This document shows positions 2,463-24,630 of a stretch of 64,000 nucleotides of DNA, one piece after another. The stretch spans positions 682,001-746,000 of the forward strand of contig NZ_FNWH01000006.1 of assembly GCF_900106585.1 (NCBI RefSeq), written 5' to 3'. Positions within the stretch are counted from its first letter, which is position 1, and each line of letters begins with the position of its first letter. The notes beneath the pieces were generated by a model, which saw only the letters and a program-made list of their open reading frames with translations, did not search any database and had not been told where the DNA came from. A program made the translations under genes and the position numbers. The DNA is from Acidaminococcus timonensis. Its GTDB lineage: Bacteria > Bacillota > Negativicutes > Acidaminococcales > Acidaminococcaceae.

Positions 2463-3749
2463 TTGAAAACCAACCATAAACGTCTTCTGCTGGGGCTTGT
2501 CACGGCGGCTGTGCTGCTGCCGGGCACTGCTTCTGCGGCTCCTTTGAACGCAGTTCTGGCGCCCAGGGATCCCGCCGTGGAACCGGTTTCCCTGGACGAG
2601 ACCGCACCTGCTGCCGGCTCCCGGCCGGCGGGGGAGAAACCGGCCCGGGCCAGGAAGGAACACCGGCACCAGCAGGAAACTCTGGAAAAAAAAGAACAAT
2701 CGGATCAAACCGGTACCCAGGGGACCAAAAGCTTCCTGGAGCGGCTGCGGGAGAAATTCCGGGGCCACGGTGACGGCGGCACCCGGGAGGAAGCCGGACC
2801 GGAGGGAAAACCGGCCAAACTGGAAAAATCCGTCCCACCGGAAAAACCGGCTCTGGACGAAAAAACTGAGAAACCGGAAAAACAGGCAAGGGACAGAAAA
2901 CCTGAGAAACCGGCCAAACCGGAAAAACCGGCAAAGCACGAGAAATCCGGAAAACCGGGCAGGGATCTCCCTCCTGCGGACTTGACCAGACTGGGACCGG
3001 CGGACCCGGACAGCCTGGTGATCCGCAAGGGTCTGCTTTCCATCACCGGCAAAAAAATGCAACTGCCCAGGTATTACAACCCGGACAAGCTGCTGCGCCT
3101 GGAAAACCAGGACAAGGCGGTGGAGGATCCCAGCCTGAAGATCATCATCAATGCACTGACCACCACTGCCAGCCTGTGGAACCTGCCGGCCAACTACCGG
3201 CAGGAACCCATTGCCGGGCCCGGAGAGGTCACCCGTGACCAGGCTGTGACTCTGCTGCGGCGCTACAACCAGGACCTGCCCATCAAGGCCACCCCGGAAC
3301 AGATCGTGGATCTGTATTACCAGGAAGCCGGCCGGGAGGGGCTGCGCTGGGATGTGGTGTTCTGCCAGGCCCTGCTGGAGACCGGATTTTTCCATTTCGG
3401 CGGCACGGTGGTCCCCGAGCAGAACAACTTCTGCGGCCTGGGCACCACCAGCGCCACGGTGCGGGGAGCCTATTTTGCCACGCCCCGGGAGGGGGTACGG
3501 GCCCATGTGCAGCATCTGATGGCCTATACCACTGACCGGCTGCCCCAGACGCCGGTGATCGATCCCCGGTACTATCTGGTGTACAAAACAAAACTGCAGA
3601 ATCACAGCTTCTTCACCCACTGGTCCCAGCTGAACGGCAAATGGGCCACGGGCAGCTACTACGCAGAAAAGATCCTGAACCTGCATGAACAGATGAAACA
3701 GATCGTTGCCATCAGCGATACCGATTGGGATGGAGGCCTTTTGAAATGA
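2463..3749 (+). CDS. Secreted glucosaminidase-domain cell-wall hydrolase
   Basis: A 428-residue exported protein starting at TTG after AAGGAG. Residues 1-25 form a signal peptide (KTNHKR, hydrophobic core, ASA cleavage site). Residues 40-180 are a low-complexity Lys/Glu/Pro linker with many EKPxKP units, likely extended in the envelope. The C-terminal third has the hallmarks of the glucosaminidase family (pfam01832): a QALLETGFF segment with the presumed catalytic Glu, then NNFCGLG, then a PREGVRAHVQHL region. It probably cleaves glycan strands of peptidoglycan. Its stop codon overlaps the start of trmL (ATGA). Confidence 0.8.
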   Translation: MKTNHKRLLLGLVTAAVLLPGTASAAPLNAVLAPRDPAVEPVSLDETAPAAGSRPAGEKPARARKEHRHQQETLEKKEQSDQTGTQGTKSFLERLREKFRGHGDGGTREEAGPEGKPAKLEKSVPPEKPALDEKTEKPEKQARDRKPEKPAKPEKPAKHEKSGKPGRDLPPADLTRLGPADPDSLVIRKGLLSITGKKMQLPRYYNPDKLLRLENQDKAVEDPSLKIIINALTTTASLWNLPANYRQEPIAGPGEVTRDQAVTLLRRYNQDLPIKATPEQIVDLYYQEAGREGLRWDVVFCQALLETGFFHFGGTVVPEQNNFCGLGTTSATVRGAYFATPREGVRAHVQHLMAYTTDRLPQTPVIDPRYYLVYKTKLQNHSFFTHWSQLNGKWATGSYYAEKILNLHEQMKQIVAISDTDWDGGLLK

Positions 3750-4216
3750 TGCATGTTGTACTGGTAGAGCCGGAAATTCCCGGCAACACGGGAAACATTG
3801 CCCGCCTGTGTGCGGCCACGGGAGCGTCCCTGCATCTGGTGCGTCCCCTGGGCTTTTCGGTGGACGATAAATATCTGAAACGGGCCGGGCTGGATTACTG
3901 GCACCTGGTGGATGTCCATTACTACGATTCGGTGGAGGAAGTCCTGGCCGAATACCCGGACAGCCCCCGGTTCCTTCTGACCACCCATGCCCATCATTCT
4001 TACAGCCGTGTCCATTACGGTCCGGATTCCCTGCTGATCTTCGGCAAGGAAAGTGCCGGACTGCCGGAAGCGTTCCGCAACGCCCATGCGGATGAGTGTG
4101 TACGCATCCCCATGGTCAGCGAGGCACGGTCCCTGAACCTGGCCAATTCGGTGGCCATTGTGCTGTACGAGGCCTTACGACAGAATGATTTTGACCTTCA
4201 GGAGGGAACCATATGA
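3746..4216 (+). CDS. trmL: tRNA (cytidine(34)-2'-O)-methyltransferase TrmL
   Basis: 156 residues, a SPOUT-class methyltransferase that 2'-O-methylates the wobble base of certain leucine tRNAs. The EPEIPGNTGNIARLC segment at the N terminus, GKESAGLPE in the middle and the SLNLANSVAIVLYE knot region are the classic TrmL motifs. The ATG at 3746 overlaps the previous stop and follows TGGAGG by nine bases; ATG 3749 is an equally possible start. It is the first gene of a run of overlapping genes leading into the folate genes, with a 4-bp overlap to the next one. Confidence 0.93.
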   Translation: MMHVVLVEPEIPGNTGNIARLCAATGASLHLVRPLGFSVDDKYLKRAGLDYWHLVDVHYYDSVEEVLAEYPDSPRFLLTTHAHHSYSRVHYGPDSLLIFGKESAGLPEAFRNAHADECVRIPMVSEARSLNLANSVAIVLYEALRQNDFDLQEGTI

Positions 4217-4575
4217 TCTGTATCAAGGAATTCGAGTTCGACGCGGCCCATTACCTGCCCAACTATCACGGCAAATGCGAACATCTCCATGGCCACACCT
4301 ACAAGCTGGTGGTGAAAGTGGAAGGCAGGCCCGATGAAGAAGGCATGGTGCTGGATTTTGTCCAGTTCAAACATACGGTGAACGAGCTGGTGGTGGACAA
4401 ACTGGACCACCACTGCCTGAACGACATCCTGCCCAACCCTTCGGCGGAAAACATTGCCCTGTGGGTGTGGAAGCAGCTCCACGATGTGCTCCACGGGCCC
4501 AACTATGCCCTGCATGAGGTCCAGGTCTGGGAGACGAAGACCAGCGGGATCGTATATCGAGGTGAAGTATGCTGA
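4213..4575 (+). CDS. queD: 6-pyruvoyl-tetrahydropterin synthase homologue (QueD or dual PTPS-I/III type)
   Basis: 120 residues, a tunnel-fold enzyme of the COG0720 family acting on 7,8-dihydroneopterin triphosphate. Zinc ligands are His13, His26 and His28. The active-site segment reads C22-E-H-L-H-G-H, containing both the Cys typical of QueD and an adjacent Glu. QueD makes the queuosine precursor; PTPS-III variants make 6-hydroxymethyl-dihydropterin for folate. The gene overlaps folE2 and is followed by folP and folK, with no folB visible. This argues for a folate role, perhaps dual folate and queuosine. The family is certain; the exact product is inferred. Confidence 0.88.
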   Translation: MICIKEFEFDAAHYLPNYHGKCEHLHGHTYKLVVKVEGRPDEEGMVLDFVQFKHTVNELVVDKLDHHCLNDILPNPSAENIALWVWKQLHDVLHGPNYALHEVQVWETKTSGIVYRGEVC

Positions 4576-5336
4576 AAGACGTACAGGCACAAAAAGACGA
4601 GCGGAACATTGCCCTGAAACATGTGGGCATCAGGAACCTGCGCTGGCCCATTGTGCTGGCTGACAGGGAAAAGGGCACCCAGCCCACGGTGGCCACGGTG
4701 AGCCTGGCGGTGGATCTGCCCCGGGAACAGCGGGGCACCCACATGAGCCGGTTCGTGGAATGCCTGAAGCAGGTGGGCCCCATCCGCCCCTTCGAACTGG
4801 AACAGGTGCTGGACGGGCTGAAGCAGAAGCTGGAGGCCCGGAAGGCCATGCTGCAGTTCGACTGCCCCTATTTCATCACGAAAAAGGCGCCGGTCAGCGG
4901 CATCGAAAGCTACCTGGATGTGGACTGCCATTTCAAGGCGGAAAAAGGGGAGACCTTCTCCCTGGAAGTGGGGGTGGACGTGCCCATCCATACCCTGTGC
5001 CCCTGCTCCAAGGAAATCAGCCGATACGGGGCCCACAACCAGCGGGCCTGGGCAAGGATGCGCATCCGCAGCACCGGACCTGTATGGATCGAGGAACTGG
5101 TGGCCATGGCGGAGAAGGGGGCTTCCACCCCGCTGTATTCCCTGCTGAAACGGCCGGACGAGAAATGCGTCACGGAGATGGCCTATGAGAATCCCCGGTT
5201 CGTGGAGGATGCGGTCCGGGAAATCGCCCTGCAGCTGGAGGCCGATGATCGCATCGACTGGTATGAAGTCACTGTGGAGAGCGAAGAGAGCATCCACAAC
5301 CACAATGCCTTTGCAACCGTAGAAAAAGAGGTGTAA
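4569..5336 (+). CDS. folE2: GTP cyclohydrolase FolE2 (type IB)
   Basis: 255 residues, the metal-flexible GTP cyclohydrolase that converts GTP to 7,8-dihydroneopterin triphosphate, the first step of folate synthesis. The TLCPCSKEISRYGAHNQR segment holds the Cys and His residues conserved in FolE2, and VDLPREQRGTHMSRF is another family signature. It overlaps the end of the pterin synthase gene by 7 bp and is separated from folP by 4 bp, so translation is likely coupled. FolE2 enzymes are often used where zinc is scarce, but no Zur site was recognised. Confidence 0.95.
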   Translation: MLKDVQAQKDERNIALKHVGIRNLRWPIVLADREKGTQPTVATVSLAVDLPREQRGTHMSRFVECLKQVGPIRPFELEQVLDGLKQKLEARKAMLQFDCPYFITKKAPVSGIESYLDVDCHFKAEKGETFSLEVGVDVPIHTLCPCSKEISRYGAHNQRAWARMRIRSTGPVWIEELVAMAEKGASTPLYSLLKRPDEKCVTEMAYENPRFVEDAVREIALQLEADDRIDWYEVTVESEESIHNHNAFATVEKEV

Positions 5337-5340
5337 TGTC

Positions 5341-6537
5341 ATGTACCTGTCCATTCCGCCTGCGCGGATCCGGTATGAAATGGAAAAGATGGATGTCCAT
5401 CCTGTGGGCATCGAACTGATGGCTCCCAAGGCCCGGGTGGAACCCCTGAAGCTGCTGGACGTGCGCACGCCGGCTGCCAACATCATCAAACAGGAGATGC
5501 TGGCCCTGGGCGGGGACTGTGTGAATCCCAAGGGTACCATCAACTGCAGCCTGGACCGGGTGGATGTGATCCTTTTGGGCAACCGGCGCCAGTACCGGAA
5601 CCTGGTGAAGAAACTGGGAACCATGGCCAACTGGTTCGGGATCCAGGCCATTATGGACGATCTGTGGGAATTCCTGGAACCGGGGACACTGGTGACGGTA
5701 CTGGCTGACGGCCGGAAGCTGACCTATGAAAAGATGCGGGTCATGGGAATTTTGAATGTGACGCCGGATTCTTTCTATGCCGGTTCCCGGATCAGTGGGG
5801 AACAGGCCCTTTTGGAGAAAGCGGAAACCATGCTCCGGGATGGAGCGGACCTGCTGGATATCGGCGGGGAATCCACCCGTCCGGGAGCGGATCCTGTGTC
5901 TCCGGAAGAGGAAAAACGCCGGGTGACGGGGGCCCTTTCCGCTCTGCGAAAACAGTTTCCGGAGGCCGTTCTCAGTGTGGACACCTACCATGCTGAGACG
6001 GCGGAAGCGGCCCTGGCAGCCGGTGCGGACATCATCAATGATGTGACGGCCGGTACCGGTGATCCCCGGATGCTTACTGTGGCTGCGGCTGCCAAGGCCC
6101 CCCTGGTGCTCATGCATATGCGGGGGACGCCCAAGACCATGCTCAGCAGCGAAAACAAGCAGTACCACAATGTGGTGGGAGACGTGGCCCGTTACCTGCT
6201 GGAACGGGCCGGTGCCTGCGCCGCTGTGGGACTGGGCAGGGACAAGGTGATCTTGGATCCGGGCCTGGGCTTTGCCAAGGACAGGGACGGAAACCTGGCC
6301 CTGTGCAACGGGCTGGCCGAACTGACGGGGCAGGGCATTCCGGTGCTTCTGGCCGGCAGCCGCAAAGGCTTCATCGGCAAGGTGCTGGGGGATCTGCCTG
6401 CAGACGACCGTCTGGAGGGCACCATGGCCCTGTCCGCCTGTGCCGTGTATGCCGGGGCCCAGATGGTCCGGGTCCATGATGTGAAAGAAAATGTCCGGAT
6501 CATCCGGATGCTGGAGGCGATCCGGGCATGCCAGTAG
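5341..6537 (+). CDS. folP: Dihydropteroate synthase with N-terminal extension
   Basis: 398 residues, longer than the usual 270-280. Residues 131-398 are the TIM-barrel synthase: MGILNVTPDSF near the start, then DIGGESTRPGA, a SVDTYHAE strand, HMRGTP, DPGLGFAKD and AGSRKGFIG. It condenses hydroxymethyl-dihydropterin pyrophosphate with p-aminobenzoate. The first ~130 residues form an extra domain without a recognised catalytic motif; such extensions occur in FolP of several Firmicutes. The gene overlaps folK by 10 bp. Confidence 0.94.
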   Translation: MYLSIPPARIRYEMEKMDVHPVGIELMAPKARVEPLKLLDVRTPAANIIKQEMLALGGDCVNPKGTINCSLDRVDVILLGNRRQYRNLVKKLGTMANWFGIQAIMDDLWEFLEPGTLVTVLADGRKLTYEKMRVMGILNVTPDSFYAGSRISGEQALLEKAETMLRDGADLLDIGGESTRPGADPVSPEEEKRRVTGALSALRKQFPEAVLSVDTYHAETAEAALAAGADIINDVTAGTGDPRMLTVAAAAKAPLVLMHMRGTPKTMLSSENKQYHNVVGDVARYLLERAGACAAVGLGRDKVILDPGLGFAKDRDGNLALCNGLAELTGQGIPVLLAGSRKGFIGKVLGDLPADDRLEGTMALSACAVYAGAQMVRVHDVKENVRIIRMLEAIRACQ

Positions 6538-7748
6538 CATACATTGCCCTGGGCAGCAACCTGGGGGACAAAGAGAAGAACCTGGAACAGGCCCTGGACC
6601 GGCTCCGGAAACACGGGGTGCAGGTGCTGGCCGTATCTCCCTGGATCGCCACCGCTCCCTATGGGGTCACGGATCAGCCGGACTTTTTGAACGGAGCGGC
6701 GAAAGTGGAGTGGGGCGGTGACGCCGAAAGCCTGCTCCATACGCTCCTGGGCGTGGAACAGGAAATGGGACGGCAGCGCAGGCGGCACTGGGGCGAGCGG
6801 AACATCGACCTGGACCTGTTGCTGTTCGGGGACCAGATCCTCCACACCGACGATTTGAACCTGCCCCATCCCGACATGGCCAACCGGAGCTTCGTGCTGG
6901 AACCCCTTTGTGCCATCGGGCCGGAAGTGGTCCATCCGGTGCTGAAAAAGACCATCCGGGCGCTGTGGCAGGCTCTTCAGGAAAAAGAACATGAAACCAA
7001 ACAGGAAAGCAGGGAACAGAACATGCAAGATCGTTTGAAGACTGGGGTCGTCCTGGTCCTTCTCTATACCATTTTATTTGCCATTGCAGAATCCGTACAA
7101 ATCGTTCCGGGCCTGAGCGGCCTGCGTCTGGCGGGGATGCTTTCCGTCCCCTACGGGCTGATCTTCGGCCGGCTGGGAGCCATCTCGGCGGCTCTGGGAG
7201 CAGCCCTGGGCATGGTGGTCACCGGGGGCAACTCCAATTTCATCCCCATTGAATTTTTGGGAGCGCTGCTGTCGGCCTATCTGCCCTTCCGGGTATGGCA
7301 GGGCATGCGCAGTCCCCAGGAACCCTATCTGTGTGTGGAAGATGAACGGACCGGCATGATGTACTTCGTGCTGAGCCTGATCGGCACCGTTCCCATGGCC
7401 GTGTTCCCGGCAGTGGGCGGCGATCTGTATAAAATCGTACCTTTCCCGGCGTCCTATCCGAAGATGTTCCTGGCCAGCCTGGTGTGCACGGTGGTGGGGG
7501 GCTTTATCGTGTATCTGTTTGCGGCACCCCGCATGTTCCGGGGCCCGGGGGAAGCCCTGTGGAACCGGATCAGGGATCCCAAAGGCACCACCCGGAATCT
7601 GGCCGTGGCCATGATCCGGATCACCCTGACCGGGGGCTTCCTGGGGCTGGGCCTGGCTTTCATCTTTCCCAATGAATTCGAACTGATCATCGTGGAATAT
7701 GTGATGGGCATCTTCGCAGCCATCCTGTTCATCCTGACGGCTGTGTAA
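6528..7748 (+). CDS. folK: FolK pyrophosphokinase fused in frame to a polytopic membrane domain
   Basis: 406 residues in one uninterrupted frame. Residues 1-155 are a full HPPK: ALGSNLGDKE at the start, WGERNIDLDLLLFGD and LPHPDMANRSFVLEPL in the middle. This makes the substrate for FolP. A charged linker follows, then from Met166 (base 7023) about six hydrophobic segments rich in Gly and Pro, not recognised. A weak site (CAGGGA) precedes the ATG at 7023, so the membrane protein might also be made separately. The second half resembles small integral membrane transport components but has no diagnostic motif. No stop lies between the halves. Confidence 0.8.
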   Translation: MPVAYIALGSNLGDKEKNLEQALDRLRKHGVQVLAVSPWIATAPYGVTDQPDFLNGAAKVEWGGDAESLLHTLLGVEQEMGRQRRRHWGERNIDLDLLLFGDQILHTDDLNLPHPDMANRSFVLEPLCAIGPEVVHPVLKKTIRALWQALQEKEHETKQESREQNMQDRLKTGVVLVLLYTILFAIAESVQIVPGLSGLRLAGMLSVPYGLIFGRLGAISAALGAALGMVVTGGNSNFIPIEFLGALLSAYLPFRVWQGMRSPQEPYLCVEDERTGMMYFVLSLIGTVPMAVFPAVGGDLYKIVPFPASYPKMFLASLVCTVVGGFIVYLFAAPRMFRGPGEALWNRIRDPKGTTRNLAVAMIRITLTGGFLGLGLAFIFPNEFELIIVEYVMGIFAAILFILTAV

Positions 7749-24281: not shown

Positions 24282-24630
24282 GGGGATGTACCGGTTTCGA
24301 CGGGGGTAGATGGTGTGCGATAAGCGAGCTGGGATCCCGCCAACCCCATAAAACGGTGGAAACGCGTTATAAACGCAGACGATTCTTACGCTTTAGCAGC
24401 TTAAATTGCTAACGTCTCGCCTCTCCCTTCCTGCAGGAGAAGCTGAGACGACACTTGCAGGATACCTGTGCTCCAATTCTCGGAGGGGGACAGGGAAATC
24501 CATCGAGATAGCACGTCGGTAAGCCCGTCTGCAGGCATATCGGCTGCGAAATAAAATATGCAGTCTGCGCTCGGAGAAGTTCGCATGGCAATGCTTTCGG
24601 ACAGGGGTTCGACTCCCCTCATCTCCACCA
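24282..24630 (+). ncRNA. ssrA: Transfer-messenger RNA (tmRNA)
   Basis: About 349 nt. The 5' GGGGATG pairs with 3' CATCTCC of the acceptor stem, which ends in an encoded CCA. The 5' domain has the GGTTTCGACGGGGG signature and the 3' end a GGTTCGACTCCCC T-arm. The tag reading frame is 24375-24404, with resume codon GCA, and encodes A-D-D-S-Y-A-L-A-A then TAA. It rescues stalled ribosomes. The tag is one residue shorter than the E. coli form, assuming GCA is the resume codon. Confidence 0.96.

Follow-up and report, generated by a model that had tools for sequence, protein, structure and literature searches.

A CExxHGH PTPS predicted to bypass FolB in the folate operon of Acidaminococcus timonensis, alongside a separate QueD for queuosine

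The folate operon of Acidaminococcus timonensis contained a gene for a PTPS (COG0720) with a CExxHGH motif, which likely performs the FolB step of folate synthesis and leaves queuosine to a separate QueD, with a main role that, by analogy with known enzymes of the family, would be PTPS-III-like. Bypass of FolB is a predicted activity that is well supported by genomic context. The observations behind it were the gene order of the operon, the motif of the encoded protein, a lack of FolB and FolE1 matches, and conservation among relatives. The gene lay in a window of 64,000 nucleotides (the whole stretch of DNA that was analyzed), taken from a genome of 2.30 Mb in six contigs that was 99.91% complete.

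Table 1. Genes of the folate operon (positions in the window) and the separate queD (position on contig C6).
Feature	Position	Strand	Family matches and remarks
trmL-type tRNA methyltransferase	3725..4216	+	TIGR00185 190.0 bits, slightly below cut-off of 190.6; PF00588 117.9 bits
CExxHGH PTPS (COG0720), 120 aa	4213..4575	+	PF01242 130.6 bits (cut-off 22.4)
folE2, GTP cyclohydrolase	4569..5336	+	NF010200 287.4 bits; PF02649 305.4 bits
folP, dihydropteroate synthase	5341..6537	+	TIGR01496 315 bits, residues 134-393 of 398
folK (HPPK) domain, lacking a terminal stop codon	6528..7022	+	TIGR01498 140.6 bits, residues 4-132
Membrane protein in frame with folK, possible ATG of its own at 7023	7023..7748	+	No assigned family
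queD, second PTPS, 108 aa, motif KCTRLHGHN (CTRLHGH)	C6:1415431-1415745		PF01242 98.4 bits

The genes were arranged in the order trmL-PTPS-folE2-folP-folK-membrane protein on one strand, neighboring genes overlapping or being separated by a few bases; the ATG of the PTPS gene overlapped the trmL stop codon as ATGA. Open reading frames and family matches confirmed the original prediction that folE2, folP and folK were contiguous and stood beside a COG0720 protein with C22-E23-x-x-H-G-H, the motif being read directly and the family assigned by PF01242. FolE2 is predicted to supply the substrate of the PTPS. FolE1 (PF01227) had no match in the genome, and the same search was positive in 11 of 14 control genomes. 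FolP carried about 130 extra N-terminal residues ahead of its DHPS domain (window positions 5341-5740), and relatives from the genus aligned to it over its full length. No riboswitch reached Rfam gathering scores in the window or in four other loci (L161, L114, L171 and L187). A tmRNA gene was present elsewhere in the window (24282-24630; Rfam RF00023, 163.5 bits).

The motif of the PTPS read G20-K21-C22-E23-H24-L25-H26-G27-H28, with C22 to H28 encoded by bases 4276-4296, and the longer stretch H13-Y-L-P-N-Y-H-G-K-C22-E23-H-L-H26-G-H28-T29 combined the cysteine of QueD with the glutamate of PTPS-III. The PF01242 domain and HGH motif placed the protein in COG0720/PTPS; it shared with PTPS-III a Glu at the ExxHGH place, a folate neighborhood and a genome lacking a FolB match, and with PTPS-I/III the CExxHGH motif itself. 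We take its key residues to be C22, E23, H13/H26/H28, D65-H66 and E107. Its closest named relatives were from Acidaminococcus massiliensis (87% identity), A. fermentans (85%) and A. provencensis (83%). As the protein also exceeded the cut-off of TIGR03367, a QueD equivalog model (102.6 versus 89.25 bits), that model used alone would name it QueD, and this misnaming should serve as a warning. The motif alone is no proof of a folate role, since CExxHGH was also found in a queuosine-only neighborhood (queC, queE and queF; L081); equally, the motif is compatible with bifunctionality without demonstrating it.

On the model of the Plasmodium enzyme and of the family as a whole, FolE2 would convert GTP to 7,8-dihydroneopterin triphosphate, and the PTPS would cleave the side chain of this product directly, yielding 6-hydroxymethyl-7,8-dihydropterin in place of FolB. 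E23 would be the base responsible for the changed course of the reaction, H13, H26 and H28 would bind the zinc, and the steps after the PTPS would fall to FolK and FolP. The separate QueD, encoded beside queC, queE and queF, would serve synthesis of the queuosine precursor, and because of it the folate enzyme is probably mainly PTPS-III-like, whatever side activity remains.

The claim that folB was missing was borne out, with no PF02152 match anywhere in the nearly complete genome and FolB found by the same profile search in 10 of 14 control genomes. FolB was likewise absent from all 59 genomes of the family Acidaminococcaceae, that of A. timonensis included, and was present in 232 of 300 class genomes. 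We searched the same 300 genomes for a DNA pattern of the CExxHGH motif (GKCExx-L-type-HGH) and found it in 60; within the family it occurred in 52 of 59 genomes, exactly those with any PTPS match. Jointly, 58 genomes carried the pattern only, 230 FolB only, 2 both and 10 neither, counts that are dominated by one order and reflect few, non-independent evolutionary events, not 58. The pattern-only genomes were the 52 of the family plus six others (G127, G167, G183, G224, G066 and G083). Thus, the CExxHGH pattern and FolB nearly excluded each other across the class, though not strictly, because in two genomes (G217 and G261) FolB occurred together with a CExxHGH gene located in a folate operon. 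In these two, which belong to another family of the class, the CExxHGH gene adjoined folP and folK (L188 and L189). The 10 genomes with neither comprised seven family genomes without a PTPS match, G078, also without PTPS, and G121 and G161, in which PTPS was present but lacked the Glu. The most complete of the seven were G023 (91%) and G047 (93%); G047 had a FolK match, yet neither a PTPS nor a FolB match. Draft gaps or another solution to the FolB step are possible in such genomes.

Conservation of the neighborhood was evaluated in 80 loci kept from 173 relatives found, 28 of which (L003-L030) belonged to this family or its order, judged by record title. In all 28, trmL was upstream of the PTPS gene and folE2 downstream, and the operon arrangement is therefore not due to chance. 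folP followed in 27 and folK in 25, and the missing genes (in L014, L019 and L023) were cut off by the end of the locus. Outside the family, the gene lay beside folP, folK and/or folE2 in all eight pattern-bearing genomes of the class (L207, L208, L210, L211 and L213-L216), one of which, G083, had an additional copy without assignable neighbors (L217). The PTPS gene was situated between folP and folK, with gaps of up to ~1.8 kb between genes, in six loci of Patescibacteria type (L033, L034, L039, L041, L042 and L045). This context, together with the absence of FolB throughout the family, supports the original prediction insofar as it had a CExxHGH COG0720 enzyme replacing FolB.

Its further suggestion of one enzyme serving both queuosine and folate synthesis was unsupported here. 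A search for a second queD in the genome found one between queC and queE in a queF-queC-queD-queE cluster (TIGR03139, TIGR00364, TIGR03367 and TIGR03963), with QueD just above its cut-off (89.4 bits versus 89.25). The same four genes were also at one place in eight other genomes of the genus (L153-L160). Because the genome has this separate QueD, the folate enzyme need not do both jobs. Across the 59 family genomes, QueE was above cut-off in 11, and in a twelfth (G042) a partial match scoring 73.6 bits lay next to queC and queD; these 12 were the same 12 that had a second full-length PTPS (>90 bits, non-CE motif). QueE was found in none of the 40 family genomes, many of them drafts, whose only full-length PTPS was CExxHGH, with a best TIGR03963 score of 50.1 bits on a scale where QueE of other types scored from 73.6 (G042) to 85 bits (G183).

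QueC proper (>150 bits) was present in 19 of those 40 genomes. A dual role was expected in these 19 and was rejected, as no QueE was found in them with TIGR03963 (searched over 59 genomes) or TIGR03365 (searched over 30 chosen genomes that included the 19). Six of the 19 (G013, G014, G016, G017, G018 and G034) encoded queC with queT and queF and without queD or queE (L114 464-2223, L171 and L174; QueT was identified by PF06177 in L114 only). This set likely serves salvage of 7-carboxy-7-deazaguanine, as it fits the salvage genes in a table of PMC6593275. A queC-queT pair was seen in L116. Neither queT nor queF was found beside queC in the 12 others of the 19 whose surroundings were examined, G038 (L120) being outside both counts. 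The context that we regarded as forcing queuosine use on a PTPS-I/III (QueE present, no other QueD) is our own criterion and not a published definition; it was not the context of the A. timonensis enzyme, and nowhere in the family was the CExxHGH enzyme shown to be necessary for queuosine.

Within the order, the 95% complete genome G183 was an exception. Here queC adjoined queE (L196), and no QueD match was found in the 14 kb around them (L222). G183 had only two PTPS matches, one of which was the CExxHGH protein in a PTPS-folE2-folP-folK arrangement (L223); the other joined a rubredoxin-like N-terminus, with a weak rubrerythrin match (28.6 bits), to a PTPS-like part with the motif GEAQYLHGH, lacking both Cys and Glu. 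Unless a QueD is missing from the assembly, the CExxHGH orthologue of G183 may serve both pathways, making G183 a better place than A. timonensis for testing duality. A frame with a rubredoxin-like N-terminus and a PTPS-like GEAQYLHGH domain, without catalytic Cys or Glu, was recorded at L218 1348-1962, with the same motif in L219 and L220; weak PTPS matches (42-61 bits) in 160-214 aa frames of nine family genomes may be of the same kind.

It is possible, though doubtful, that the CExxHGH enzyme of the order is bifunctional and was ancestrally the sole PTPS for both pathways, with Acidaminococcus and a few relatives gaining QueD later. If so, the group would show a promiscuous enzyme being relieved of one job, and G183 may keep the ancestral state. 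That the A. timonensis enzyme itself is a true PTPS-I/III, also making 6-carboxytetrahydropterin for queuosine in vivo and redundant with QueD, is unlikely given the QueD of its own queuosine cluster and the strict pairing of QueE with a separate QueD across family genomes (12 of 12, with QueE in 0 of the 40 that have CExxHGH only), even though CExxHGH retains the QueD cysteine, the protein passes the QueD model, the sole full-length PTPS of G183 is of this type, and hybrids able to work in both the queuosine and folate pathways are reported in PMC5041015. We therefore retain a mainly PTPS-III-like role as the preferred reading. We consider it highly improbable that the protein is an extra QueD by ancestry only and that an unrelated aldolase encoded elsewhere carries out the FolB step. 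Other lineages do have aldolases distinct from FolB, and the QueD equivalog match would agree with such an origin, but the folate-operon order kept across the family, the near-exclusion with FolB and the position between folP and folK in the Patescibacteria-type loci argue against it.

None of these conclusions depends on the PTPS tree, which was built from 117 proteins and again from 113 after removal of L043, L045, L050 and L059, and which had few columns, many open forks and long branches that met. The QueD of the genus formed its own clade with a support of 100, and the folate enzyme was not contained in any small set with strong support. Other QueDs, in a clade of 19 rows, were placed within the folate clade, which we took as a long-branch effect. 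Motifs were also counted by neighborhood over the 117 rows, mainly close relatives. CE with HGHT occurred in 52 folate, 0 queuosine, 1 mixed and 5 unassigned neighborhoods, and CE with HGHN in 4, 1, 1 and 14, respectively; proteins without the E occurred in 0 folate, 22 queuosine, 1 mixed and 16 unassigned neighborhoods. We do not claim a new signature from these counts.

At the distal end of the operon, the expected end of folK at 7023 did not hold, as the frame had no stop codon there and remained open to 7748 (406 aa). In six Acidaminococcus relatives (L003-L008), folK comprised 155-173 aa, and a gene of its own encoded the membrane protein. The open folK frame of A. timonensis, at 422 aa, was the only one of this length among nine genomes of the genus (172-267 aa in the others). 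Among 30 other folK loci examined, two, from other genera of the family, showed a similar run-on in frame and without a stop, into a peptidase M20 domain in G053 (L150 1465-3162) and into an aldo/keto reductase in G040 (L132 286-1911). That the partner differs in each of the three cases suggests that the folK stop codon was lost repeatedly, though sequencing or assembly causes are also possible. Open folK frames of 488-561 aa were seen in G011, G012 and G051. The ATG at 7023, preceded by a purine-rich stretch, may start the membrane protein alone. This protein was found in seven Acidaminococcus genomes, with 40-83% identity between the window copy and its six relatives, and had no NCBIfam match at 0.001 and no Pfam match at E values up to 5. 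Its predicted fold (pLDDT 64, pTM 0.56) had no PDB match at E ≤0.001; the best was the RibU S subunit (E 0.33), a weak likeness to ECF S subunits that is insufficient for naming the protein.

The CExxHGH PTPS offers a way to fill the place of FolB in the folate pathway of a family of gut bacteria. It also shows that CExxHGH should not be read as "dual" before a second QueD has been looked for, and genomes that share this orthologue but differ in whether they have a separate QueD provide a clean comparison set. Among the papers searched, none linked Acidaminococcus to both folate biosynthesis and folB, or to PTPS-III. CExxHGH hybrids are already in print, and the gene described here adds another such enzyme: PMC5041015 assigns ExxHGH to PTPS-III and CxxxHGH to PTPS-I, and states that CExxHGH can exist as a hybrid. 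The A. timonensis enzyme resembles the PTPS-I/III hybrids of COG0720 in its motif, folate neighborhood and lack of a FolB match, and differs in that a separate QueD encoded with queC, queE and queF makes it unneeded for queuosine. With QueD/PTPS-I, such as E. coli QueD (4ntm; CxxxHGH), it shares the family, the cysteine and the QueD model match, whereas its Glu after the Cys and its location in a folate operon instead of a queuosine cluster set it apart. With PTPS-III (ExxHGH), it shares the predicted FolB bypass and a Glu at the place equivalent to that in Plasmodium falciparum PTPS (1y13), and E23 aligned with the E of Pyrococcus PH0634 (2dj6), whose class we infer from that motif. In the Plasmodium enzyme, according to PMC2229834, Glu38 replaces the Cys and is required for making the folate intermediate, and E38C abolishes 6-hydroxymethyl-dihydropterin. 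These PTPS-III enzymes lack a Cys next to the Glu (in PH0634 the residue is W), whereas the enzyme of A. timonensis keeps its Cys.
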